This document shows, one piece after another, positions 5,254 through 59,369 of a stretch of DNA of 64,000 nucleotides (positions are counted from its first letter, which is position 1; the number at the start of each line of letters is the position of its first letter). Origin of the DNA: Rhodospirillales bacterium (GTDB lineage Bacteria > Pseudomonadota > Alphaproteobacteria > Rhodospirillales > WMHbin7). The position numbers were made by a program, and so were the translations under genes. The DNA lies in assembly GCA_016214125.1 (NCBI GenBank), contig JACRPC010000011.1, positions 62,001-126,000 on the forward strand, read 5' to 3'. Below the pieces are notes generated by a model, which had not been told where the DNA came from, made no database searches, and was given only the letters and a program-made list of their open reading frames with translations.

Positions 5254-6921
5254 ATGCCCGCCAACGCCGCCCTCTATTACACCCGGGTCGATTTCGACAA
5301 TCGCGGCGCCGACCAGCCCAAGGGCCGCCTGTCGGCGAATGAAGGTTTTCTCGAAGCCTTCCTCGCCCATGCCGGGGTCGAGGAGTTCGCCTGTCTGGCG
5401 CCCAGCCGGGCCGACGCCCAGCATTTTGCCGACCGGGTCTTGAAGGCCATCGGCAAGTCCCGCACCGCCTGGATCGGCCCCACCGCGCACGAGCCCTTGG
5501 GCAAGATCGGCACCCTGTTTTACATGTCGCCCGGCCTGGCGCCCTGGGCCTGGCGGCGACGGCGCTACCATCCCCGGGCCTACAGCCTGGTCGGCATCAC
5601 CTACACCATTTCCTCGCCGGTGGTGCTGGACGCCCTGGCGGCGATGCCGGCGGCGCCCCTCGAACCCTGGGACGCGCTGGTCTGCATTTCCGAGGACGGC
5701 ATGAAGGCGGCGCAGACGGTGCTGAGCGCCCAGGCCGATTATCTTAGGGAACGGCTGGGAGCCACGAGGCCGAGCCTTCCCCAATTGCCGGTGATTCCCT
5801 TCGGCGTCGACGCCCAGGCGCTGGCGGCGCTCCGCCTGCGGCGCCAGCGGGCGCGCGCCCGCTTCGACCTCGCTGAGGGCGAGATCGCCGTGCTGGCGCT
5901 GGGGCGCCTCACCCCCTTCGACAAGGCCAATCCCCTGCCCCTGTTCCTGGCGGTCGAAGAAGCGGCCAAGAAAACCTCCAAGCCCTTGCGCCTGATTCTG
6001 GTCGGCCGCGCCCCCGACGCGAAGACGCACCAAGCCTTTGCCCAGGCGGCGGCGACGATCGCACCCTCGGCCCGTCCCGGCCTGTTCGACGGCCAGGCCG
6101 AGGGCATGATCGAGGAGGCTTGGGCAGCGGCCGATATCTTCCTTTCCCTGCCTGACAATCACCAGGAAACGCTGGGCCTGACGCCGATCGAGGCCATGGC
6201 AGCGGGGATTCCGGTGGTGGGCGCCGATTGGGACGGCTACCGCATGTCGGTCCGCCCCGGCATCGACGGCTTTCTGGTGCCGGTGCGCGCCGCGATGCCC
6301 GGCTCGGGCGGCGATCTGGCGGTCCGCCTGGAAGCCGGGATCGACAACGTCTTTCAATCGCTGGGCCAGGCCAGCCAGTTCGTCGCCGTCGATGTCGCGG
6401 CCGCCGCCGAGGCGCTGGTCCGCCTGGCCGACGATGCCGAACTGCGCGCCCGCCTGGGCCAAGCCGGACAGGCCCGCGCCAAGGCCGAGTTCGATTGGCC
6501 GCGCATCGTTGCCGCCCACCAGAAGCTCTGGGAGGCGCTGGCCGAAATTCGCCGGGCGGCAACGCCCGGGCCGGCCATCGACCCCGCCAACGTCCATCCC
6601 GCCCGCCCGGACCCCTTCCGCATGTTCGCCAGCTATCCGACCGAGACGCTGGCGCCCGCCATGCGCATCGCGCCCGGGCCCGCCTTCGCGCCCGAGCGGC
6701 GCCGCCTGATCTTGGAATCGCCCCTGGCCACCTTCATCGATCCGGCCCTCCTGCCGACGCCCGAGGAAACGGCGCGCGCCCTGGCCGCCATCGCCCAGGC
6801 TGGCGCCACCAGCCTCGGCGACGTGGCGGCGCTGTTCGAACCGTCGCGCCGTGCCTTGCTGGCGCGCGGCTTGCTTCGGCTGGCGAAATTCGGCGTTCTG
6901 CGAATCGAATCCGCCCTATGA
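5254..6921 (+). CDS. GT4-like family glycosyltransferase with C-terminal extension
   Basis: 555 residues; GGAAAGGA lies just before the ATG. The central and C-terminal parts show the GT-B fold of family 4: AVLALGRLTPFDKANP (start of the second Rossmann domain), LILVGRAPD, DIFLSLPDNHQETLGLTPIE with the EX7E motif that binds the nucleotide sugar, and EAMAAGIPVVGADWDGYR. An extra C-terminal segment of about 110 residues (from about residue 445) has no obvious motif. Donor and acceptor are unknown. The stop codon overlaps the start of the next gene (ATGA), so the pseudouridine synthase gene is translationally coupled to it. Confidence 0.8.
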   Translation: MPANAALYYTRVDFDNRGADQPKGRLSANEGFLEAFLAHAGVEEFACLAPSRADAQHFADRVLKAIGKSRTAWIGPTAHEPLGKIGTLFYMSPGLAPWAWRRRRYHPRAYSLVGITYTISSPVVLDALAAMPAAPLEPWDALVCISEDGMKAAQTVLSAQADYLRERLGATRPSLPQLPVIPFGVDAQALAALRLRRQRARARFDLAEGEIAVLALGRLTPFDKANPLPLFLAVEEAAKKTSKPLRLILVGRAPDAKTHQAFAQAAATIAPSARPGLFDGQAEGMIEEAWAAADIFLSLPDNHQETLGLTPIEAMAAGIPVVGADWDGYRMSVRPGIDGFLVPVRAAMPGSGGDLAVRLEAGIDNVFQSLGQASQFVAVDVAAAAEALVRLADDAELRARLGQAGQARAKAEFDWPRIVAAHQKLWEALAEIRRAATPGPAIDPANVHPARPDPFRMFASYPTETLAPAMRIAPGPAFAPERRRLILESPLATFIDPALLPTPEETARALAAIAQAGATSLGDVAALFEPSRRALLARGLLRLAKFGVLRIESAL

Positions 6922-47682: not shown

Positions 47683-48015
47683 TCAGACGCAGCCGGTGGG
47701 CTTGGGCAGACCGGCGATCTTGCAGGCCTGCTTGGCGGGACCATAGGGGAACAGCTCGTAGAGATATTTGTTGCTGCCCTTCTCCGCCCCCAGCTTCTTC
47801 GAAATCGCCTTGGTCAGCACCCGGATTGCCGGGGCGATCTGGTATTCGCTGTAATATTCGCGCAGGAAGTTGACCACTTCCCAATGCTCGGGGCTCATGG
47901 CGATCTGCTCGGCCTTGGCGATCTCGCCCGCCACCTCTTCCGACCACTCGTTGATGTTGACGAGATAGCCTTCCTCGTCGGTCTCCACCGTCTTGCCGTT
48001 CGCCTGATACGCCAT
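47683..48015 (-). CDS. dsrC: DsrC, sulfur-carrier protein
   Basis: 110 residues; AAGGAGA 7 nt upstream. The flexible C-terminal arm ends CKIAGLPKPTGCV, with the two redox cysteines 11 positions apart (Cys98 and penultimate Cys109), the hallmark of true DsrC (as Cys100/Cys111 of A. vinosum). Other traits: EEGYLVNINEWSEEVA and MSPEHWEVVNFLREYY. It receives sulfur from DsrEFH, presents it to DsrAB, and is the substrate of DsrMK. Confidence 0.96.
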   Translation of the reverse strand: MAYQANGKTVETDEEGYLVNINEWSEEVAGEIAKAEQIAMSPEHWEVVNFLREYYSEYQIAPAIRVLTKAISKKLGAEKGSNKYLYELFPYGPAKQACKIAGLPKPTGCV

Positions 48016-48065
48016 GGTCTCGTCTCCTTCTCGAATGCGAATGAAAATGGTTGGGTTGGTTGGGT

Positions 48066-48374
48066 TCAGCACCAAGCCTGCACGGCCTGATGCTTGGCCG
48101 CCAGCTCCACGAAGCCGCGATAATCGACCACCGTGACGCCGGCAATCAGCCTGTCCTCGCCCAGGCCGCGCGCCTTCAAGTCGGGCCCCAGCACGTAGAG
48201 GGCGCGGGTCTTGGCCGCCTCGGCCAGCCGCTCGGCGAACCGCCCGCCCTTGAGCGCGCCATAGACGCCGTCCTCGTATAGCAGGATCGCCGCGCCGGGC
48301 AGCGAAAGGTCGAGGCAGCTCGAAAGCGCGTCGCGCTCGAAGGGCGATTTGGCAACCGTGTGCAACAGGCTCAT
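48066..48374 (-). CDS. dsrH: DsrH sulfurtransferase subunit
   Basis: 102 residues from ATG at 48374; GGGGGA lies 6 nt upstream of that start, and using it the conserved Cys falls at residue 20, as in A. vinosum DsrH (102 residues, MSILHTV start). An ATG 6 nt earlier lacks room for a ribosome binding site. Motifs: LHTVAKSPFERDAL, AILLYEDGVYGAL, LYVLGPDLKARGL, VVDYRGFVEL. TusB-like member of the DsrEFH hexamer. Confidence 0.93.
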   Translation of the reverse strand: MSLLHTVAKSPFERDALSSCLDLSLPGAAILLYEDGVYGALKGGRFAERLAEAAKTRALYVLGPDLKARGLGEDRLIAGVTVVDYRGFVELAAKHQAVQAWC

Positions 48375-48385
48375 CGTCATTCCCC

Positions 48386-48790
48386 CTAGGCGCTCAGGAT
48401 CACGTCCATCTCGCCCATCAGCTTGGCCATCTCGGCCCGGCTGAGAACGGTGACCGGCACGATCAGATCGGCTTCCGCCAGGCCGCGTTCGTCGAGCGAT
48501 TCCTGATCGACATAGAGCTTCTCGATATCGTAGCCCTCGAGCGCCCGATAGGTGTTGGAAAAGTTCTTCATGCCGATGCCGGCGGTCTCCATGCCCTTCT
48601 TCAGCTCGAAGACGCCGTCGTCGGTGAAGACCAGATGCACATCCTGATCGAAGGCGGCCGAGATCAGCACCATCTCCAGCACTTCCAGGGCGTAGACGGT
48701 GCCGTAGGGCGCCTTGCGGTTGACGTACATGAATTTCTTGACGATGCCCGATCCGCCTTCGGCCTCGTCGGTGCGATCTTCGTCCATCAT
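48386..48790 (-). CDS. dsrF: DsrF sulfurtransferase subunit
   Basis: 134 residues. KKFMYVNRKAPYGTVYALEVLEM, FTDDGVFELKKGM, IGMKNFSNTYRALEGY and KLYVDQESLDERGL follow the A. vinosum DsrF pattern. The N-terminus has about 15 extra polar residues and the C-terminal part is shorter than in that protein. The position of the Cys seen in AAFDQDVC of A. vinosum is His here. TusC-like structural member of DsrEFH. Confidence 0.92.
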   Translation of the reverse strand: MMDEDRTDEAEGGSGIVKKFMYVNRKAPYGTVYALEVLEMVLISAAFDQDVHLVFTDDGVFELKKGMETAGIGMKNFSNTYRALEGYDIEKLYVDQESLDERGLAEADLIVPVTVLSRAEMAKLMGEMDVILSA

Positions 48791-48803
48791 GGCTCCCCTC
48801 CCC

Positions 48804-49163
48804 CTAATCGCCGAAGGTGACGAGGCGGTCGGCCTGGATGCCGGCCTCGATCAATTGACCCAGTCCCGAGATGCGGAAACCGGGCGCCAGATTGTCGTTC
48901 TTGATGCCGCGCCTGAGCGCGGCGGCGACGCAGACCACCAGATCGACCTTGTGATCCTCGGCCAGCGTCGACCAGTTCTTCACCACGTTGCGGTCGTCGG
49001 TCGGCGGCTCGGCCAGCATGTTGGCGTTGTGGACGCCGTCGTAATAGAAGAAGACGCGGAAGATGGCGTGACCGGCTTCCAGCGCCGCCTTGGCGAACTG
49101 ATAGGCGGAATCCGAGGCCTGGTGGTTGAACGGCCCCTCATTGACCAGGATGGCGAACTTCAT
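48804..49163 (-). CDS. dsrE: DsrE sulfurtransferase subunit
   Basis: 119 residues. Cys78 in DLVVCVAAALRRG is at exactly the active position known for DsrE of A. vinosum. FAILVNEGPFNHQASDSAYQFAKAAL and the tail GLGQLIEAGIQADRLVTFG complete the family pattern. TusD-like catalytic subunit that hands persulfide sulfur to DsrC. Presence of DsrEFH separates sulfur oxidisers from sulfate reducers. Confidence 0.95.
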   Translation of the reverse strand: MKFAILVNEGPFNHQASDSAYQFAKAALEAGHAIFRVFFYYDGVHNANMLAEPPTDDRNVVKNWSTLAEDHKVDLVVCVAAALRRGIKNDNLAPGFRISGLGQLIEAGIQADRLVTFGD

Positions 49164-49187
49164 CCCCCTCTCCCCTTTCCCGGCGGC

Positions 49188-50258
49188 CTAGAAGCGCAAC
49201 TGCGCCGAGGCGTTGAGGCTGGCCCGCCCGCCCCGCCAATTGTCGACGTGGTATTTGGTGAAGGGCAGGCCGGTCAGCTCGAAGAAGCGCGGCCAGCCGA
49301 TGCGGTCGATCCATTCGCCCACCCGCTCCCAGGCCCGGGCGTCCTTCTGATAGGCGCGCAGGATCGACTTCACCACGGCGGCCACCTCGGGCCAGCGCGG
49401 CGCGTTGTTTTCCAGCCCGGCCGCCACCAGCTTGTGGAAGCTGGGCTGCGAGCGGGTCGAGGAATGCTTGCCGCCCACCCAGATGGCGATCTTGGTGTTG
49501 ACGGGATCGTTGATCTGCATCGGCGGGCAAGGCGGATAGCAGGCGCCGCAGCAGACGCATTTCTTCTCGTCGACCTCCAGCGTCGGCTTGCCGTTGACCA
49601 GGGCGGGGCGGATCGCCGCCACCGGGCAGCGGGCGACCACCGCCGGGCGCTCGCATTGCAGGCTCACCAGCTCGTGATTGATCTTGGGGGGCTTGGTGTG
49701 CTGGACGTTGATGGCGATGTCGCCCTGGCCGCCGCAATTGATCTGGCAGCAGCTCGTGGTGATCTTCACTCGGTTGGGCATGCGCTCGTGGGTGAACTCG
49801 TCGTGCAACTCGTCCATCAGCGCCTTGACGACGCCCGAGGCATCGGTGCCGGGGATGTCGCAATGCAGCCAGCCCTGGGTGTGGGAAATCATCGTCACCG
49901 AATTGCCGGTGCCGCCGACCGGGAAGCCGGCCTTGGTCAAAGCCTCGACCAGGGGCGCCACCTTGTCGGCCTTGGAGACCATGAACTCGATGTTCGAGCG
50001 CACGGTGAAGCGCACATAGCCCTCGGCGTAGGTGTCGGCGATCTCGCAAAGCTTGCGGATGGTGCCGACATCCATCTGGCGCTGGGTGCCGGCCTTCACC
50101 GTCCAGATCTCGTCACCCGATTGGGCAACATGGTGGAGCACGCCGGGACGCGGCCGGTCGTGCCAGGCCCAATGACCGTAGTTCTTTTTCATCAGGGGGT
50201 GCATGTAAGGGAAGGGATCGGGCACCCCGCTCTCGGTCGGGCGACGAAGTTCAGCCAT
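49188..50258 (-). CDS. dsrB: Reverse dissimilatory sulfite reductase, beta subunit
   Basis: 356 residues. MHPLMKKNYGHWAWHDRPRPGVLHHVA is the DsrB start. The sirohaem/FeS region (TTSCCQINCGGQGDIA, CERPAVVARCPVAAI) and the ferredoxin insert (KCVCCGACYPPCPPMQI) are intact. With DsrA it forms the alpha2beta2 enzyme that, in the oxidative direction, converts DsrC-bound sulfur to sulfite in the cytoplasm. Confidence 0.96.
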   Translation of the reverse strand: MAELRRPTESGVPDPFPYMHPLMKKNYGHWAWHDRPRPGVLHHVAQSGDEIWTVKAGTQRQMDVGTIRKLCEIADTYAEGYVRFTVRSNIEFMVSKADKVAPLVEALTKAGFPVGGTGNSVTMISHTQGWLHCDIPGTDASGVVKALMDELHDEFTHERMPNRVKITTSCCQINCGGQGDIAINVQHTKPPKINHELVSLQCERPAVVARCPVAAIRPALVNGKPTLEVDEKKCVCCGACYPPCPPMQINDPVNTKIAIWVGGKHSSTRSQPSFHKLVAAGLENNAPRWPEVAAVVKSILRAYQKDARAWERVGEWIDRIGWPRFFELTGLPFTKYHVDNWRGGRASLNASAQLRF

Positions 50259-50291
50259 GCAATCGGTCCTCCATGTTGCGCCTGCGGTCGA

Positions 50292-51542
50292 TCACTCGGC
50301 GGCGCTTTTCTTGCGGGCGTTCCACTTCTGCACCTCGGCGTCCCAGCCGTCGATGCGGACGTAGGAATTGGTGCGCGGGTGGCGGATCATGTTGGGATCA
50401 AGATCGAGCTCGATGCCTTCGAGGAAGTTGACCAGCCCGATGCGCTCGATCATCTCGCCGCAGCGCTCGTGCTCGAGCGCGTTCTCGGCGAAGAACTCGA
50501 CCACCTTCTTGGCCAGTTCGACCAGCGCCTCGTAATCCTCGTCGGTGTCAAGCTTGTGGAAGGGCACCACCACGGTGCCCATCTGGTCGCCGATCTTCAA
50601 GGTGCGCTTGCCGCCGACCAGGATGGCCGCGCCGCGTTCCTTGCCGGGCTTCAGGGCCTTGGTGAGCACGTTGATGCAATGCATGCAGCGCACGCAGCTC
50701 TTGTTGTCGACGTCCAGGCTGTCGTCGTCGTTGAGCGACAAGGCCTCGGTCGGGCACATGCGGATGACCTGATCGATCATCTGCTTGCGGCCGTTCTTCT
50801 TGACGTAGGCCTGCACCTCGGCCTGGTTGACGCGCATGTCGTCCTTCCAGGTGCCGATCACCGCCATGTCGGCGCGGTGAATGGCGTTGGCACAGTCGTT
50901 GGCGCAACCGGCGAACTTGAACTTGAACTTGTAAGGCAGCGAGGGCCGGTGCATGTCGTCCAAGAAGGCGTTGACGACGCGGCGCATCGCCTTGGCCTCG
51001 TCGAAGCAGCTTTGCTCGCAGCGCGCCGCGCCGACGCAGGAGACCGAGGTGCGCACGCCGGCGCCGGCGCCGCCCAGATCGAAGCCCATTTCGTTCAGTT
51101 CGTCGAAGGCACCCTGCACCTTCTCCGAGCTGGTGCCCTGGAACATGATGTCGCCCGACTGGCCGTGGAAGGCGATGAGGCCCGAGCCGTGGCGTTCCCA
51201 CACGTCGCACATCTGGCGCAACAGATCGGTGGTGTAGTGCATGCCGGCCGGCGGCATGACGCGCAGCGTGTGGAATTCCTTCGAGGCCGGATACTTCTCG
51301 GCCACCTCGGAGAAGCGGGGAATGACGCCGGCGCCGTAGCCGAACACGCCCACCGTGCCGCCCTTCCAATAGCCCTTGCGGGTCTCGTAGGAATGTTCGA
51401 GTTGGCCCAGAAGGTCCTTCATCATGTCGGCATAGGGCTTGTCCTCGGCCTTCGCCAGGCGCTTCAAGCCGGTGACGAAGCTGGGCCAGGGCCCGCTCTC
51501 CAACTGGTCGAGCAGCGGCGTCTTGGGCATCGCTTTGGCCAT
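50292..51542 (-). CDS. dsrA: Reverse dissimilatory sulfite reductase, alpha subunit
   Basis: 416 residues from ATG at 51542, with AAGGAGG 8 nt upstream; the longer frame would lack such a site. TPLLDQLESGPWPSFVTGLKRL is the DsrA start. Cys ligands for the coupled sirohaem-[4Fe-4S] site are in SCVGAARCEQSC and GCANDC; the ferredoxin domain shows MCPTEALSL and CVRCMHCINV. First gene of the 13-gene dsr operon. Company of dsrEFH and dsrL, and length like A. vinosum DsrA, indicate the oxidative type. Confidence 0.96.
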   Translation of the reverse strand: MAKAMPKTPLLDQLESGPWPSFVTGLKRLAKAEDKPYADMMKDLLGQLEHSYETRKGYWKGGTVGVFGYGAGVIPRFSEVAEKYPASKEFHTLRVMPPAGMHYTTDLLRQMCDVWERHGSGLIAFHGQSGDIMFQGTSSEKVQGAFDELNEMGFDLGGAGAGVRTSVSCVGAARCEQSCFDEAKAMRRVVNAFLDDMHRPSLPYKFKFKFAGCANDCANAIHRADMAVIGTWKDDMRVNQAEVQAYVKKNGRKQMIDQVIRMCPTEALSLNDDDSLDVDNKSCVRCMHCINVLTKALKPGKERGAAILVGGKRTLKIGDQMGTVVVPFHKLDTDEDYEALVELAKKVVEFFAENALEHERCGEMIERIGLVNFLEGIELDLDPNMIRHPRTNSYVRIDGWDAEVQKWNARKKSAAE

Positions 51543-51850
51543 TCGCTTTCCTCCTTGCGACACGATCCGGTTCAAGGCGCCCAGGCCTTCGCTTGGGCCG
51601 GGCCGCCTCATTTCACAGCCGACTTATGCGGAATTTTGACAGAGCTCCGCCCTGGTCGGGTTCCTCCACGCACTCTTCTTGCCGGGGTCGGCGGTCGCGA
51701 TTTCGGCCATCCGCCCCCTTGGCCTCGTACATTATTACATCATAATATAATGTCCCAAGCAAAAATCCAGCGCTTTTTTTGCCCCCCGAACTGGGCTAGC
51801 GTGACGAGGGCAAGGCGGGCCGGAAATGAAATATTTTTTTGAAATTTCAA
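51543..51850. promoter_or_regulatory. Divergent dsrA / TauD-like control region
   Basis: A 308-bp gap without a gene. Its right half is strongly A/T-rich. ACATTAT (51729-51735) and ATAATGT (51747-51753) form an inverted repeat with an 11-nt spacer. On the minus strand, AATAAT lies 16 bp after TTGGGA within the same repeat, so a dsrA promoter may overlap it, giving a leader of about 180 nt. TTTGAAATTTCAAA (51838-51851) is a perfect 14-bp palindrome that touches the ATG of the TauD-like gene. A TTGACA on the plus strand at about 51647 has no matching -10 box. Confidence 0.45.
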
Positions 51851-53720: not shown

Positions 53721-53908
53721 GCGGTCTATTTAGCCAAAACCGGGCCCCTTGGCAAAGACCATCGGTACGCGCAGGCCGCTGGATTTCGGGCAAGTTCTTA
53801 CGCTATTGTTGGCGGGAGCCTCCGTCCATGCCCCGCCAACGCGGGCCAAGCGGGTTGGCTCCAACAAACCGAACGTCAACCGTTTGGTCCACAGGGAGAC
53901 CCGCGTAG

Positions 53909-54274
53909 ATGACCCGATCCGTCCTGGTGGTCGACGACGAATCGAACATCGTCCTTTCCCTCGAATTCCTGATGAAGCAGGCGGGGTTCGATGTCCGCGT
54001 GGCGCGCGACGGCGAAGCGGCGCTCACCGAAGTTGCGAAAAGCCCGCCCGATCTCATTTTGCTCGACGTCATGATGCCCAAGCGCGACGGCTACGACGTC
54101 TGCCAGACCATCCGCGCCAACCCCGACTGGAAGAACGTGCGCATCATCATGCTCACCGCCAAGGGCCGCGACATCGAGCGCGAAAAAGGCCTGGCGATGG
54201 GCGCCGACGACTACATCACCAAGCCCTTCTCGACCCGCGAGGTGGTCGAGCGGGTCAAGCACTACCTCGCCTGA
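53909..54274 (+). CDS. CheY-like response regulator
   Basis: 121 residues; AGGGAG 10 nt upstream. A single receiver: VLVVDDESNIV acidic pocket, phosphoacceptor Asp in LILLDVMMPKRDGYD, Thr in IIMLTAKGRD and Lys in DDYITKPFSTRE. No output domain. It is first in a four-gene cluster with the exonuclease fusion, a small membrane protein and a CbrA-like sensor kinase, which is the obvious phosphodonor. Confidence 0.9.
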   Translation: MTRSVLVVDDESNIVLSLEFLMKQAGFDVRVARDGEAALTEVAKSPPDLILLDVMMPKRDGYDVCQTIRANPDWKNVRIIMLTAKGRDIEREKGLAMGADDYITKPFSTREVVERVKHYLA

Positions 54275-54285
54275 GGGATTGGCCG

Positions 54286-56346
54286 GTGAGTCCGCGCGCC
54301 GGTCTCGCCCTCGCCTTCGCCCTGCTGGCCGTTCTGGCCGTCGCGGCCCTCTACCTTGCGCCCAGCTTGGATCCTCCCGCCCGCAGCCTGCTGGCGCTCG
54401 TCCTCGTGGTCGGCGTCGGCGTGTTGGCCTTCATCCTCGACCAGCGCCTGATGGGGCCGGCCGCCCAATTGGCCAACGAGGTCGAGTTCCAGGCCCGCAC
54501 CAAGGGCGCCCAGCGCGGTCTGATCCGGCCCGGCCCGCACTGGCTGGGGGCGCTTCTGCCGGCGGTCGAGGCGCTGGTCCAGGTTCTGCAGGGCCGCCAG
54601 GACGATCTGCGCCAGGCGCTCGACCAGGCCACCGCCAAAAGCGAGGAGCAGAAGCGCTGGCTGGAGGTGATCCTGGTCGACCTCTCGGAAGGCGTGCTGG
54701 TCTGCAACATGAGCCACCAGATCCTGCTTTACAATCAGGCGGCCATCCGCCTGTTCGAGGGCTCGGACGCGCTGGGGCTGGGGCGGCCGCTCTTCAATCT
54801 GGTCAGTCGGGCGCCGGTCTTGCACACCCTCGATCTCCTTCAGCACCGCCGCCGCCCGGCCTCCGACGACGAAGCGACGGTGCCCTTCGTTTGCGCCACC
54901 GCCGATTCCCGCCTGATGCTGCAAGGCCGGCTGGGGCTGATCAAGGACGCCAACGCCAAGATCACCGCCTACGTCGTCACCTTCAGCGACATCTCGGGCC
55001 GCATCGCCGAGATCGAGAAGGGCGACGAAGTGCGCCGCGCCATGACCCGCGAATTGCGCCAGCCGATCGCCAATCTGCGCGCCGCCGCCGAAACCCTGGC
55101 CGGCTATCCCGACATGGCGCCGGCGGTCCGCCAATCCTTCGATCAGGTGATTCTCGACGAAGGCACCCGCCTGTCGGATCGGCTGGAAGCGTTGGCCCGC
55201 GAATATCGCGGCCACGCCTTGGGCCGTTGGCCGATGGCCGATCTGCACGCCGCCGATCTGGTCAATTGCATCGACCGCCGCCTGGCCAAGGACCGGGCGC
55301 TGGCCCTGACCCTGGTCGGCATTCCGCTCTGGCTGCACGGCGATTCCCATCTGCTGATGCTGGGCTTCGAGCAGCTTTTGCGCCGCCTGCACGCCAAGAC
55401 CGGCGTTGCCGCCTTCGACGCCGAAACGATGCTGGGCGACAAGCGGGTCTATCTCGACCTGGCCTGGGAGGGACCGACGGTCAGCGCCCAGCAGATCGAG
55501 GCCTGGCTCGACGAGCCCCTGGCCGATGCCGACGGCCCCTACCGCCTGCGCGACGTCTTCGAGCGCCACGGCTCCGAGATGTGGTGCCAGGCAAGAGGCG
55601 GACGGGCGGTGTTGCGGGTGCCGCTGCTGGCGCCGGCCGGCGCGCCGATCAAGGGAACGGCGCCCGAACTGCCGCCCCGGCCGGAATTCTACGATTTCGG
55701 CCTGATGAGCGCCCACAGCGACGCCGGCCGCTTGAGCGAGCGCCCCTTGCGCGCCCTCACCTTCGTCGTCTTCGACACCGAAACCACGGGCTTGAAGCCT
55801 AGCGAAGGCGACGAGATCATCTCGATCGGCGCGGTGCGGGTGGTCAACGGACGGCTCTTGACCGGCGAAACCTTCGAGCGCCTGGTCAATCCCGGCCGCA
55901 CCATTCCCAAGGACTCGATCCGCTTCCACGGCATCACCGACGCCATGGTCAAGGACAAGCCGCCGATCGGCGTGGTGCTGCCGCAGTTCAAGGCTTTTGC
56001 CGGCGACGCCGTGCTGGTCGCCCACAACGCCGCCTTCGACATGAAATTCCTCCAGCTCAAGGAAAAGGCGACCGGCGTCGCCTTCGCCAATCCGGTGCTC
56101 GACACCATGCTGCTTTCGCTCTTGGCCGATGCCCATCTCGAGGATCATTCGCTCGACGGGGTGGCGCAGCGCTTCCTGATCGACATTCCCGACCGCCACA
56201 CCGCCCTGGGCGACGCCCTGGCGACGGCGGCGGTGCTGGTCCGCCTGATCGAAATCGTCGAGACCAAGGGCATCGCCACCTTCGGTCAGGTGATGAAGGC
56301 GGCCAACATGGCCGCCGAAGTCCGCGCCCGCCAGGCGCGGATCTAG
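54286..56346 (+). CDS. Membrane PAS / pseudo-histidine-kinase / DnaQ-like exonuclease fusion
   Basis: 686 residues from GTG at 54286 (GAGGG 8 nt upstream). Two N-terminal membrane helices (about 5-50), a coiled linker, a PAS-like domain (about 125-240), then a HisKA-like helix MTRELRQPIANLRAAAETL in which the phosphoacceptor His is Arg255; no N or G boxes for ATP are seen. From about 487 comes a DEDDh exonuclease: VFDTETTGLKP (Asp497, Glu499), VAHNAAFDMKFL (His580, Asp585) and RHTALGDALATA (His638, Asp643), all catalytic residues present. So a dead kinase scaffold is joined to an apparently active 3'-5' exonuclease at the membrane. Coupled to the receiver and the CbrA-like kinase. Confidence 0.85.
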   Translation: MSPRAGLALAFALLAVLAVAALYLAPSLDPPARSLLALVLVVGVGVLAFILDQRLMGPAAQLANEVEFQARTKGAQRGLIRPGPHWLGALLPAVEALVQVLQGRQDDLRQALDQATAKSEEQKRWLEVILVDLSEGVLVCNMSHQILLYNQAAIRLFEGSDALGLGRPLFNLVSRAPVLHTLDLLQHRRRPASDDEATVPFVCATADSRLMLQGRLGLIKDANAKITAYVVTFSDISGRIAEIEKGDEVRRAMTRELRQPIANLRAAAETLAGYPDMAPAVRQSFDQVILDEGTRLSDRLEALAREYRGHALGRWPMADLHAADLVNCIDRRLAKDRALALTLVGIPLWLHGDSHLLMLGFEQLLRRLHAKTGVAAFDAETMLGDKRVYLDLAWEGPTVSAQQIEAWLDEPLADADGPYRLRDVFERHGSEMWCQARGGRAVLRVPLLAPAGAPIKGTAPELPPRPEFYDFGLMSAHSDAGRLSERPLRALTFVVFDTETTGLKPSEGDEIISIGAVRVVNGRLLTGETFERLVNPGRTIPKDSIRFHGITDAMVKDKPPIGVVLPQFKAFAGDAVLVAHNAAFDMKFLQLKEKATGVAFANPVLDTMLLSLLADAHLEDHSLDGVAQRFLIDIPDRHTALGDALATAAVLVRLIEIVETKGIATFGQVMKAANMAAEVRARQARI

Positions 56347-56365: not shown

Positions 56366-56617
56366 ATGCCGCACCGCCGCACCCGACAACGCGCCCTGCG
56401 CCTGGTCCGCCAAAGCAGCGTCACCGCCCGCCTGGTGGGGGTGTTCCTCTTGGGCGCTTTCCTGTTCCTGCCGCCACTCTTGCGCGTCTTCAACGCCGGC
56501 GGCTTCCTGGCCGGCTTTCCCCTGCTTTATGTCTATCTCTTCCTGGCCTGGGCGGGGCTGGTGGCGGTGATGGCGCTGGCCATCGAGGGCGATCCGCCCT
56601 CCGGAATCGACGGATGA
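56366..56617 (+). CDS. Small two-helix membrane protein, CbrX-like
   Basis: 83 residues; AAGGAGGAGG 7 nt upstream. A basic N-terminus is followed by two membrane helices (about 24-41 and 50-73, with GFPLLYVYLFLAWAGLVAVMALAI). Small membrane proteins in this place, directly ahead of a symporter-histidine kinase, are known as CbrX in Pseudomonas (ahead of cbrA). The similarity is in size, topology and position; sequence homology was not tested. Probably an accessory to the kinase's transporter domain. Confidence 0.7.
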   Translation: MPHRRTRQRALRLVRQSSVTARLVGVFLLGAFLFLPPLLRVFNAGGFLAGFPLLYVYLFLAWAGLVAVMALAIEGDPPSGIDG

Positions 56618-56630
56618 ACGGGACCCGGCC

Positions 56631-59369
56631 ATGAGCGGGGCGGTGGTCATCGGCGTCGCCTTCGCCTATCTCTGCCTGCTGTTCGCCATCGCCTATTGGG
56701 GCGACAAGCGCGCCGACGCCCGGCGCAGCCTGATCGCCCACCCGGCGATCTACGCGCTGTCGATCGCCGTCTACTGCACCTCCTGGACCTTCTACGGCTC
56801 GGTCGGGCGGGCCACCCAGACCGGCGTCGGCTTCCTGCCGATCTATCTGGGGCCGACCTTGATGGCGGCGCTGTGGTGGCTGGTGCTGCGCAAGATGGTG
56901 CGGATCTCGAAAACGCACCGCATCACCTCGATCGCCGATTTCGTCTCCTCGCGCTACGGCAAAAGCACGTTTCTTTCCGGCCTGGTGACGGTGATCGCGG
57001 TGATCGGCATCATGCCTTACATCTCGTTGCAGCTAAAGGCGGTTTCCGCCTCCTTCACGGCGCTGGTCGAGTTCGCGGCGCCCGGCAGCACGCCCGGCCT
57101 GCCCTTGCCCGGCGCCGACACCCCCTTCCACGCCGACACCGCCCTTTACGTCGCCGCCATTCTCGCCGCCTTCGCCATTTTGTTCGGCACAAGGCACATC
57201 GACGCCTCCGAGCATCACGAAGGCATGGTGGCGGCCATCGCCTTCGAATCGATCGTCAAGCTCCTGGCCTTCCTGGCGGTGGGGCTGTTCGTCGCCTTCG
57301 GCCTCTTTGCCGGACCGGGCGACATCTTCCGCCAGGCGGCCGAGCGGGCCGACCTGGCGCGGCTCTTCACCATGCCCGATGCCGGCGCCATCGGCGATTT
57401 CGTGGCGCTCACCCTGTTGTCGATGCTGGTGATTCTGTGCCTGCCGCGCCAATTCCAGGTCTCGGTGGTCGAGTGCGTCGACGAGGTCCACATCAAGCGG
57501 GCGATGTGGATGTTTCCGCTCTATCTGCTGCTCATCAACCTCTTCGTGCTGCCGATCGCCTTTGCCGGCCTGCTCACTTTCCAGCCGGGCACCGTGCATC
57601 CCGATCTGTTCGTGCTGGCGCTGCCGCTTTCGCAGGGCCACCAGTTCCTGGCGCTGTTCGCCTTCATCGGCGGCCTGTCGGCGGCCACCGGCATGATCAT
57701 CGTCGAGACGGTGGCGCTGGCCACCATGGTCTGCAACGACCTGGTGATGCCGGTGCTGCTGCGCATCGAGGGCCTCAATCTCGCCCAGCGGCGCGACCTC
57801 AGCCGCCTGCTGCTCGCCATCCGCCGCTGGACCATCGTCGTCGTGGTGCTCTTGGGCTATCTCTATGTGCGGCTGATCGGCCAGTCCTTCGCGCTGGTCA
57901 CCATCGGTCTGGTGTCGTTTGCCGCCGCCGCCCAGTTCGCGCCGGTGCTGCTGGGCGGCATCTTCTGGCGCGGCGCCACCCGGGCCGGCGCCGTCGCCGG
58001 CCTGATGGGCGGTTTCGGCGTCTGGCTCTACACCCTTCTGCTGCCCTCCTTCGCCCGCTCCGGCTGGCTGCCGGTGGGCTTCGTCGATCACGGCCTCTTT
58101 GGCTTCGCTCTCCTCAAGCCCTACGCCCTGTTCGGCCTTTCCGGCCTCGATCCGATCACCCATTCCCTGATCTGGAGCCTGATCGCCAATCTCGGCTTCT
58201 ACATCGCGGTGTCGCTGGCCTCGGGCCAAGGGGCGATCGAGCGCATCCAGGCGGCGCTGTTCGTCGATGTCTTCCGCCCCTCGGGCGAAGCGGGCGGCGG
58301 CCGCTTCTGGCGCGGCACGGCGCCGGTCGCCGATTTGCAGGAGCTGGTCGGGCGCTTCGTCGGCGAAGAGGCGGCGGCGCGCGCCTTCGCCCTTTACGCC
58401 GCCGAACGCGGGCTCGATCTGGCGCTCCAGGGCGAGGCCGATGCCGATCTGGTCAACTTCGCCGAACGCATCCTGGCCGGCGCCATCGGCGCCGCCTCGG
58501 CCCGGGTCATGGTGGCCTCGGTCGCCAAGGGCGAGGTGGTCGGGCTGCAGGAGGTGATGGAAATCCTCGACGAGGCCTCGCAGATCCTGGCCTACAGCCA
58601 GAAGCTCGAGATGAAATCGAAGGAGCTGGAGCAGGCGACCGCCGAACTTACCGCCGCCAACGAACGCCTGAAGGAACTCGATCGCCTGAAGGACGATTTC
58701 GTCTCCACCATCACCCACGAACTGCGCACGCCCTTAACCTCGATCCGCTCCTTCTCGGAAATCCTGCACGACAATCCCGAGCTCGATCTCGGCCAGCGCC
58801 AGGAATTCCTGCGCATCGTCATCAGCGAATCCGAGCGCCTGACGCGGCTCATCAATCAGGTGCTCGACCTGGCCAAGATCGAGGCCGGCTCGCTCGATTG
58901 GGACATCCGGACGCTCGACGTCGCCGAGGCGGTGCGAGCCGCGCTGACCGCCACCCAGCGCCTGGCCGGCGACAAGGGGGTGACTCTCACCGTCGATCTC
59001 GAAGCCGGGGCGCCGCCGGTGCCGGCCGATCGCGACCGCCTGATCCAGGTGATGGTCAATCTGCTCTCCAACGCCGTCAAATTCGCGCCCCCCGACAAGG
59101 GCCGGATCGCCGTGACGCTGGCCGCGACACCGGAGGGGGTGCGGGTGTCGGTGGCCGACAACGGCCCCGGCATTCCCGCCGACCATCACGAGGCGGTGTT
59201 CGACAAGTTCCGTCAGGTGGGCGACACGCTGACCGAGAAGCCCGAAGGTTCGGGCTTGGGGCTGGCGATCAGCCGCACCATCCTCGAGCATCTGGGCGGC
59301 CGCATCTGGGTGGAAAGCCGGCCCGGCGAAGGCGCCACCTTCAACTTCGTCCTCCCCCGGGCCGTCTGA
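56631..59369 (+). CDS. CbrA-like sodium/solute symporter-histidine kinase
   Basis: 912 residues. Residues 1 to about 520 form a sodium:solute symporter-type membrane domain with about 13 helices (AVYCTSWTFYGSVGRATQTG, GFLPIYLGPTL are typical). A STAC-like linker follows (GLQEVMEILDEASQILAYSQKL), then a coiled coil and the kinase: HisKA with His696 in HELRTPLTSIRSFSEIL, N box NLLSNAVKF, G boxes VADNGPGIP and GSGLGLAIS. The kinase is complete. CbrA relatives sense or transport amino acids (His, Pro) or acetate; the ligand here is unknown. Likely partner: the receiver at 53909. Confidence 0.92.
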   Translation: MSGAVVIGVAFAYLCLLFAIAYWGDKRADARRSLIAHPAIYALSIAVYCTSWTFYGSVGRATQTGVGFLPIYLGPTLMAALWWLVLRKMVRISKTHRITSIADFVSSRYGKSTFLSGLVTVIAVIGIMPYISLQLKAVSASFTALVEFAAPGSTPGLPLPGADTPFHADTALYVAAILAAFAILFGTRHIDASEHHEGMVAAIAFESIVKLLAFLAVGLFVAFGLFAGPGDIFRQAAERADLARLFTMPDAGAIGDFVALTLLSMLVILCLPRQFQVSVVECVDEVHIKRAMWMFPLYLLLINLFVLPIAFAGLLTFQPGTVHPDLFVLALPLSQGHQFLALFAFIGGLSAATGMIIVETVALATMVCNDLVMPVLLRIEGLNLAQRRDLSRLLLAIRRWTIVVVVLLGYLYVRLIGQSFALVTIGLVSFAAAAQFAPVLLGGIFWRGATRAGAVAGLMGGFGVWLYTLLLPSFARSGWLPVGFVDHGLFGFALLKPYALFGLSGLDPITHSLIWSLIANLGFYIAVSLASGQGAIERIQAALFVDVFRPSGEAGGGRFWRGTAPVADLQELVGRFVGEEAAARAFALYAAERGLDLALQGEADADLVNFAERILAGAIGAASARVMVASVAKGEVVGLQEVMEILDEASQILAYSQKLEMKSKELEQATAELTAANERLKELDRLKDDFVSTITHELRTPLTSIRSFSEILHDNPELDLGQRQEFLRIVISESERLTRLINQVLDLAKIEAGSLDWDIRTLDVAEAVRAALTATQRLAGDKGVTLTVDLEAGAPPVPADRDRLIQVMVNLLSNAVKFAPPDKGRIAVTLAATPEGVRVSVADNGPGIPADHHEAVFDKFRQVGDTLTEKPEGSGLGLAISRTILEHLGGRIWVESRPGEGATFNFVLPRAV

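Follow-up and report, generated by a model that had tools for sequence, protein, structure and literature searches.

A conserved fusion of a pseudo-histidine kinase and a DEDDh exonuclease, possibly a gated nuclease of an acetate/pyruvate-sensing module

The window analysed here is a stretch of 64,000 nucleotides from the genome of a Rhodospirillales bacterium. It contains a single gene in which a membrane-anchored sensor module that resembles a histidine kinase is joined to an exonuclease domain. This gene, its domains and its neighbours are as follows:

53909-54274, forward strand: CheY-like single-domain response regulator, 121 aa, with Asp53 as phospho-acceptor (Pfam Response_reg, E=8e-31)
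54286-56346, forward strand: TM2-PAS-pseudo-histidine-kinase-DEDDh exonuclease fusion, 686 aa, single gene
54286-54495, forward strand: two transmembrane helices (aa 7-25 and 34-52) and the beginning of a membrane-proximal helix (hydropathy, AlphaFold2 helices)
54676-54993, forward strand: PAS domain, about aa 131-236 (PAS_9, E=2e-4; conserved EGVxVCNLxHxxLLYN; PAS-like strands in the AlphaFold2 model)
55003-55215, forward strand: pseudo-DHp domain, aa 240-310, with Arg255 at the phospho-His position and Gln259 at the H+4 phosphatase position
55234-55635, forward strand: degenerate CA (HATPase-like) domain, aa 317-450 (AlphaFold2; Foldseek to VicK, HK853 and DivL), N- and G-boxes lost
55747-56253, forward strand: DEDDh exonuclease domain, aa 488-656 (RNase_T, catalytic residues, Foldseek to DnaQ epsilon and PolC)
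56366-56617, forward strand: small hydrophobic membrane protein, 83 aa (open reading frame; tblastn with the 81-aa Paracoccus protein PDEN_RS25400, 44% over 41 aa)
56631-59369, forward strand: CrbS/MxtR-like symporter-domain histidine kinase, 912 aa (HisKA, E=2e-19; HATPase_c, E=4e-31)

The fusion gene begins with a GTG codon 11 bases past the stop of the regulator gene. A start at 53749, which would give a longer in-frame reading frame that overlaps the regulator gene, is unlikely. The Pfam match to RNase_T was strong (E=2e-38, residues 497-654 in the scanned 689-aa translation), and the matches to PAS_9 and HisKA (E=0.012) were weak and under the curated cut-offs. The AlphaFold2 model, computed with 15 homologues, had a mean pLDDT of 78 and a pTM of 0.46, a value at which the relative placement of the domains is unreliable. 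In the model, a transmembrane hairpin and a PAS domain are joined by long helices of the DHp type, a CA-like domain of the alpha/beta kind and an exonuclease fold. Foldseek searches of the PDB matched the first two thirds of the protein to VicK/WalK, to other PAS kinases and also to DivL (4q20), with best E-values of about 1e-15 to 1e-18. The protein shares the common TM-PAS-DHp-CA layout with PAS histidine kinases of the PnpS/PhoR/VicK type, but it has lost the phospho-His, the phosphatase residue and the N- and G-boxes, and its output is a nuclease.

To characterize the kinase-like part, we aligned the window protein with 97 homologues. The position of the phosphorylated residue, Arg255 in the window protein, was not occupied by His in any of the 97, which had Glu (48), Arg (24) or other residues. 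None of the 97 had Thr or Asn at the H+4 phosphatase position, and a phosphatase-only pseudokinase is disfavoured for this reason. The ATP-box motifs were also eroded, with the N-box and the G2 box in 0 and D.G.G in 2 of 98 sequences. Set against a sensor histidine kinase, the window protein lacks the phospho-accepting His and the N, G1 and G2 boxes; the DHp and CA folds are recognizable in the AlphaFold2 model and by Foldseek. Most of the degenerate CA domain (about aa 317-450) was modelled with a pLDDT of about 80-90, and the matches to VicK/WalK and other full-length kinases extended across the region. Mean conservation was highest in the exonuclease, at 3.2 bits per position, and reached about 2.4-2.5 bits in the PAS, DHp and CA domains. 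Arg258 was kept in 95 of the 97 homologues, and the NLRAAAE and PxWLxGD353 motifs of the DHp/CA region were likewise conserved over a wide divergence. Since the PAS, DHp and CA domains are also conserved, the dead kinase part has been retained for some purpose.

The catalytic residues of the exonuclease showed the opposite pattern to that of the phospho-His. Asp497, Glu499, Asp585, His638 and Asp643 were present in all 97 homologues and His580 in 94, and the domain has the D-E-D-H-D residues in three motifs and the RNase-H-like fold of DEDDh (DnaQ-like) exonucleases. Foldseek aligned the C-terminus to the epsilon subunit DnaQ of E. coli (2ido, 2gui and 1j53) with TM-scores of 0.83-0.86 of the target and an rmsd of about 2 A, and to the PolC exonuclease with 40-41% identity. 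Among solved structures, those nearest in sequence are the DNA-proofreading exonucleases PolC and epsilon rather than Orn or RNase T. The fusion shares the DEDDh fold and residues with them (31-41% identity over the domain), but it is not tied to a polymerase and is membrane-anchored behind a sensor module, in a genome that has its own DnaQ; the fusion and DnaQ are the only two genes with PF00929 in that genome. The absence of the phospho-His in all homologues, together with catalytic residues that are always kept, indicates that the kinase-like part is an old pseudokinase and that the nuclease is under selection and apparently intact. That the nuclease is active and signal-gated we infer.

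These results bear out most of a preliminary description of the gene, which had proposed two membrane helices and a PAS domain, Arg255 in place of the phosphorylated His and a complete set of DEDDh residues, and had asked for a structure prediction to look for the RNase-H-like fold that was found here. Its statement that the ATP-binding boxes are missing is correct at the level of motifs, but the degenerate CA domain is still present. It made no mention of this domain, of the CheY-like regulator, of the 83-aa reading frame, or of the DUF294 link and the PP_0353 genetics that are discussed below.

A scan of genome contigs in the whole collection confirmed 514 related loci, the best of which were mostly from Alpha- and Gammaproteobacteria; Ectothiorhodospira, Halorhodospira, Magnetospirillum, Skermanella, Amaricoccus and Competibacteraceae were represented among the best 80. 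The full fusion was present in 18 of 60 order-level relatives, with the genome of the window included, and in 6 of 240 genomes of a class sample from which it was excluded, while a short form occurred in 8 of the 60. Of 249 sampled at the level of the phylum, about 31 matched at E<=1e-90. Examples on Paracoccus plasmids are annotated merely as 'exonuclease domain-containing protein' or similar. A sequencing error that joined two genes, which the preliminary description had named as a condition that would refute it, and a decaying pseudogene are both rejected, as is chance: nothing spoke for them, the identical domain order was conserved across families in 122 distinct full-length proteins, 514 candidate loci were found, and the catalytic residues of the nuclease were invariant in the 97 homologues.

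Besides the full form, the exonuclease was found as TM2-exo, with about 300 aa, as TM2-PAS-exo, with about 470 aa, and in a soluble form, exo-CBS-CBS-DUF294-DUF294_C. The last is a single in-frame protein of 704 aa (L182:4037-6148, reverse strand), with similar proteins in L051 and L052. In a tree of the exonuclease domains, the exo-DUF294 proteins formed a separate supported lineage. The TM2-exo proteins formed one supported group that was nested among the full forms, save for one full-form row on a long branch inside it, and this nesting suggests that TM2-exo arose by loss of the sensor core. At one locus (L179), the exonuclease, at 6180-6776, shares an open frame with about ten membrane helices that are similar to an EamA-type transporter, and a DUF294 gene adjoins it. 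A divergent full-length paralogue, 32% identical, is present in L046 (G034:C52) and at G051:C1:97416-99482 in genomes that also carry the standard fusion; regulator, kinase and DUF294 genes are all absent from the vicinity of the L046 copy.

We also examined the gene neighbourhoods. The kinase at 56631-59369 resembles CrbS (MxtR) in being a symporter-domain kinase with intact HisKA and HATPase domains and looks active, with a match to SSF that is weak (E=0.002) and under the curated cut-off. Such a kinase was located directly downstream of the fusion at 52 of 97 loci; the preliminary description had suggested a search for the domain order of the fusion beside symporter kinases. The small hydrophobic protein is conserved beside this kinase, and its Paracoccus counterpart PDEN_RS25400 adjoins a kinase of the same type. 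Among 41 full-fusion loci with long flanks, 23 contained the symporter-kinase, 22 a DUF294 nucleotidyltransferase and 13 ActP, with at least one of the three in 37. CBS/DUF294 nucleotidyltransferase, actP, DUF485 and acs genes recurred as other neighbours across the loci, as exemplified by the order acs-DUF485-actP-cNMP/CBS/DUF294-hypothetical-regulator-fusion in Aestuarium and DUF294-small protein-symporter kinase-regulator-fusion in Paracoccus denitrificans. The proximity to CrbS/ActP-type genes that the preliminary description had mentioned is a stronger link than was then known. The linkage to CBS/DUF294 and actP holds for the family but not at the window, the genome of which has its DUF485-actP-CBS/DUF294 genes on another contig. 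Besides the exo-DUF294 fusion, all 18 other short forms examined had a DUF294 gene in the same locus. Two Magnetospirillum clusters (L076 and L084) combine the full fusion with a further exonuclease match and with DUF294, DUF485 and actP genes. L135:5780-6268, between DUF294 and the exonuclease, encodes a conserved protein that is about 160 aa long and has no Pfam match; homologues are found in L174, L175, L180 and L181, and all of these loci are alphaproteobacterial acetate clusters.

The CheY-like regulator was encoded directly upstream of the full fusion at 94 of 115 loci with sufficient flank. Asp53 was kept in 70 of 73 aligned regulators, and the face of helix 1 was near-invariant. Within the tree set, 36 of 43 full forms had the regulator directly upstream, as compared to none of the 16 short forms without DHp/CA. 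Hence, 7 of the 43 full fusions in the pair-test set were without an adjacent regulator, which means that the pairing is not absolute or that the regulator is encoded elsewhere. A phylogenetic pair test of the pseudokinase against the adjacent regulator gave a single direction throughout, but from two independent, well-supported pairs only, so that an association between the two is no more than suggestive and not statistically secure. The regulator is a 121-aa receiver only, and not the LuxR-type DNA-binding partner found in CrbS/CrbR (MxtR/ErdR) systems; we consider it the most plausible dedicated input to the fusion. A precedent is DivL of Caulobacter, a PAS-bearing pseudo-kinase with a histidine-kinase-like core that has no phospho-His, which binds the single-domain regulator DivK and acts on the kinase CckA. 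Both proteins combine a PAS domain with such a core, and the DivL structure was among the Foldseek matches to the fusion, but DivL is without a nuclease domain, and the motifs of the CA pocket are fully lost in the fusion.

Members of the exonuclease group have been studied genetically in Pseudomonas. In P. putida, PP_0353, which has an RNase_T match, and PP_0354, a CBS protein with DUF294, form an operon under MxtR/ErdR (CrbS/CrbR); strains deleted for PP_0353 grow on pyruvate with a delay, while deletion of PP_0354 had no phenotype under conditions where that of PP_0353 had one (PMC9927547). The symporter-kinase pp_1695 and the regulator pp_1635 are encoded apart from PP_0353, and the homologues of PP_0353 in P. 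aeruginosa adjoin actP/yjcH (PMC9927547). Pflu5625 of P. fluorescens, with cAMP-binding, CBS and nucleotidyltransferase domains, is among the CrbS/R genes studied (PMC5715377). What this system has in common with the fusion family is an RNase_T exonuclease encoded together with a CBS protein, the P. fluorescens counterpart of which has a nucleotidyltransferase domain, in an acetate/pyruvate regulon under a symporter-kinase (PMC9927547; PMC5715377), and the short relatives (TM-exo, TM-PAS-exo and exo fused to CBS-DUF294), all linked to DUF294, match the PP_0354/PP_0353 pair. The published account gives only the RNase_T match for PP_0353, with no PAS domain or pseudokinase, and a kinase and regulator located elsewhere (PMC9927547). 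Judged by this description, the window gene appears to belong to the PP_0353 group as a member with a fused sensor. Beyond that account, we found nothing relevant to a kinase-exonuclease fusion or a DUF294/exonuclease link in the open-licence literature, which is a weak absence. The components were already known; what is new relative to the literature searched is that a pseudo-histidine kinase and a DEDDh nuclease are combined in one conserved protein.

We propose that the fusion acts as a pseudokinase-gated, membrane-anchored 3'-5' exonuclease of an acetate/pyruvate (CrbS/MxtR-type) carbon-sensing module, a tentative reading whose chance of being correct we place slightly below even. The symporter-like kinase would sense a carboxylate, or its uptake, and phosphorylate the single-domain regulator. 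Lacking a DNA-binding output, the regulator would then dock on the dead DHp/CA core in the way that DivK docks on DivL, and the altered DHp/CA packing would open or close the C-terminal nuclease, with the PAS domain and the membrane helices as a possible second input. Such docking and control of the nuclease are favoured by the adjacency of the genes, by a receiver that is phospho-competent but has no output, by the retention of the DHp/CA fold without its chemistry and by the fusion of the exonuclease to the nucleotidyltransferase elsewhere. An alternative is that the PAS/membrane region of the protein itself does the sensing, that the dead DHp/CA is no more than a dimerising linker and that the regulator serves the symporter-kinase alone. 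This would agree with the existence of TM2-PAS-exo and TM2-exo relatives without DHp/CA and of full fusions without a regulator, but we hold it to be improbable in view of the conserved R258, NLRAAAE and PxWLxGD353 and of the contrast in regulator adjacency between full fusions (94/115) and short forms (0/16).

As for the substrate, we prefer a reading in which the nuclease would share it with the co-encoded CBS/DUF294 nucleotidyltransferase, in the simplest form by trimming the nucleotides that the transferase adds, as eraser to writer. A simple obligate pair is not favoured, since the PP_0354 deletion was silent where the PP_0353 deletion was not. Extended to the whole pathway, the phosphorelay would run from kinase to receiver to pseudokinase-gated nuclease and end in the hydrolysis of a nucleic-acid or nucleotide bond that reverses the CBS/DUF294 product, as an acetate/pyruvate nucleotidylation switch, which in this full form is a bold and rather unlikely proposal. 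The main rival is direct RNA decay, in which the nuclease would degrade or trim mRNAs of central carbon metabolism, or the ends of sRNAs or tRNAs, at the membrane and the nucleotidyltransferase would have a separate target. Henriquez et al. (PMC9927547) suggested RNA decay for PP_0353, and the DEDDh fold is compatible with it. It does not account, however, for a DUF294 nucleotidyltransferase that is constantly linked to the exonuclease and in places fused to it in frame, and the nearest solved relatives are DNA-proofreading enzymes, so that we regard it as unlikely. The enzyme might instead hydrolyse a small messenger, either a linear dinucleotide (such as pGpG or pApA) or an oligonucleotide made by the DUF294 enzyme, and so close a second-messenger loop. 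DEDDh enzymes include oligoribonucleases, and the partner has CBS and, in some genomes, cNMP-binding domains, but no cyclase or phosphodiesterase gene came to notice in the cluster, and the exonuclease is closer to PolC and epsilon than to Orn, so that this is a quite improbable option.

If the preferred mechanism of a gated nuclease is right, a nuclease may be under the direct control of carbon sensing, and a two-component system would have a non-transcriptional output that targets nucleic acid or nucleotidylated molecules. A phenotype is known for the exonuclease of the CrbS/MxtR regulon, and the fused form suggests both its input, a receiver bound to the dead kinase, and the CBS/DUF294 nucleotidyltransferase as its partner. 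The exonuclease and the nucleotidyltransferase could then be assayed together, and the question of the acetate-regulon exonuclease would become testable.

Finally, genes similar to dsrAB, dsrEFH and dsrC of sulfur oxidation, recognised by eye, are located upstream in the window on the opposite strand (47683-51611, reverse strand).
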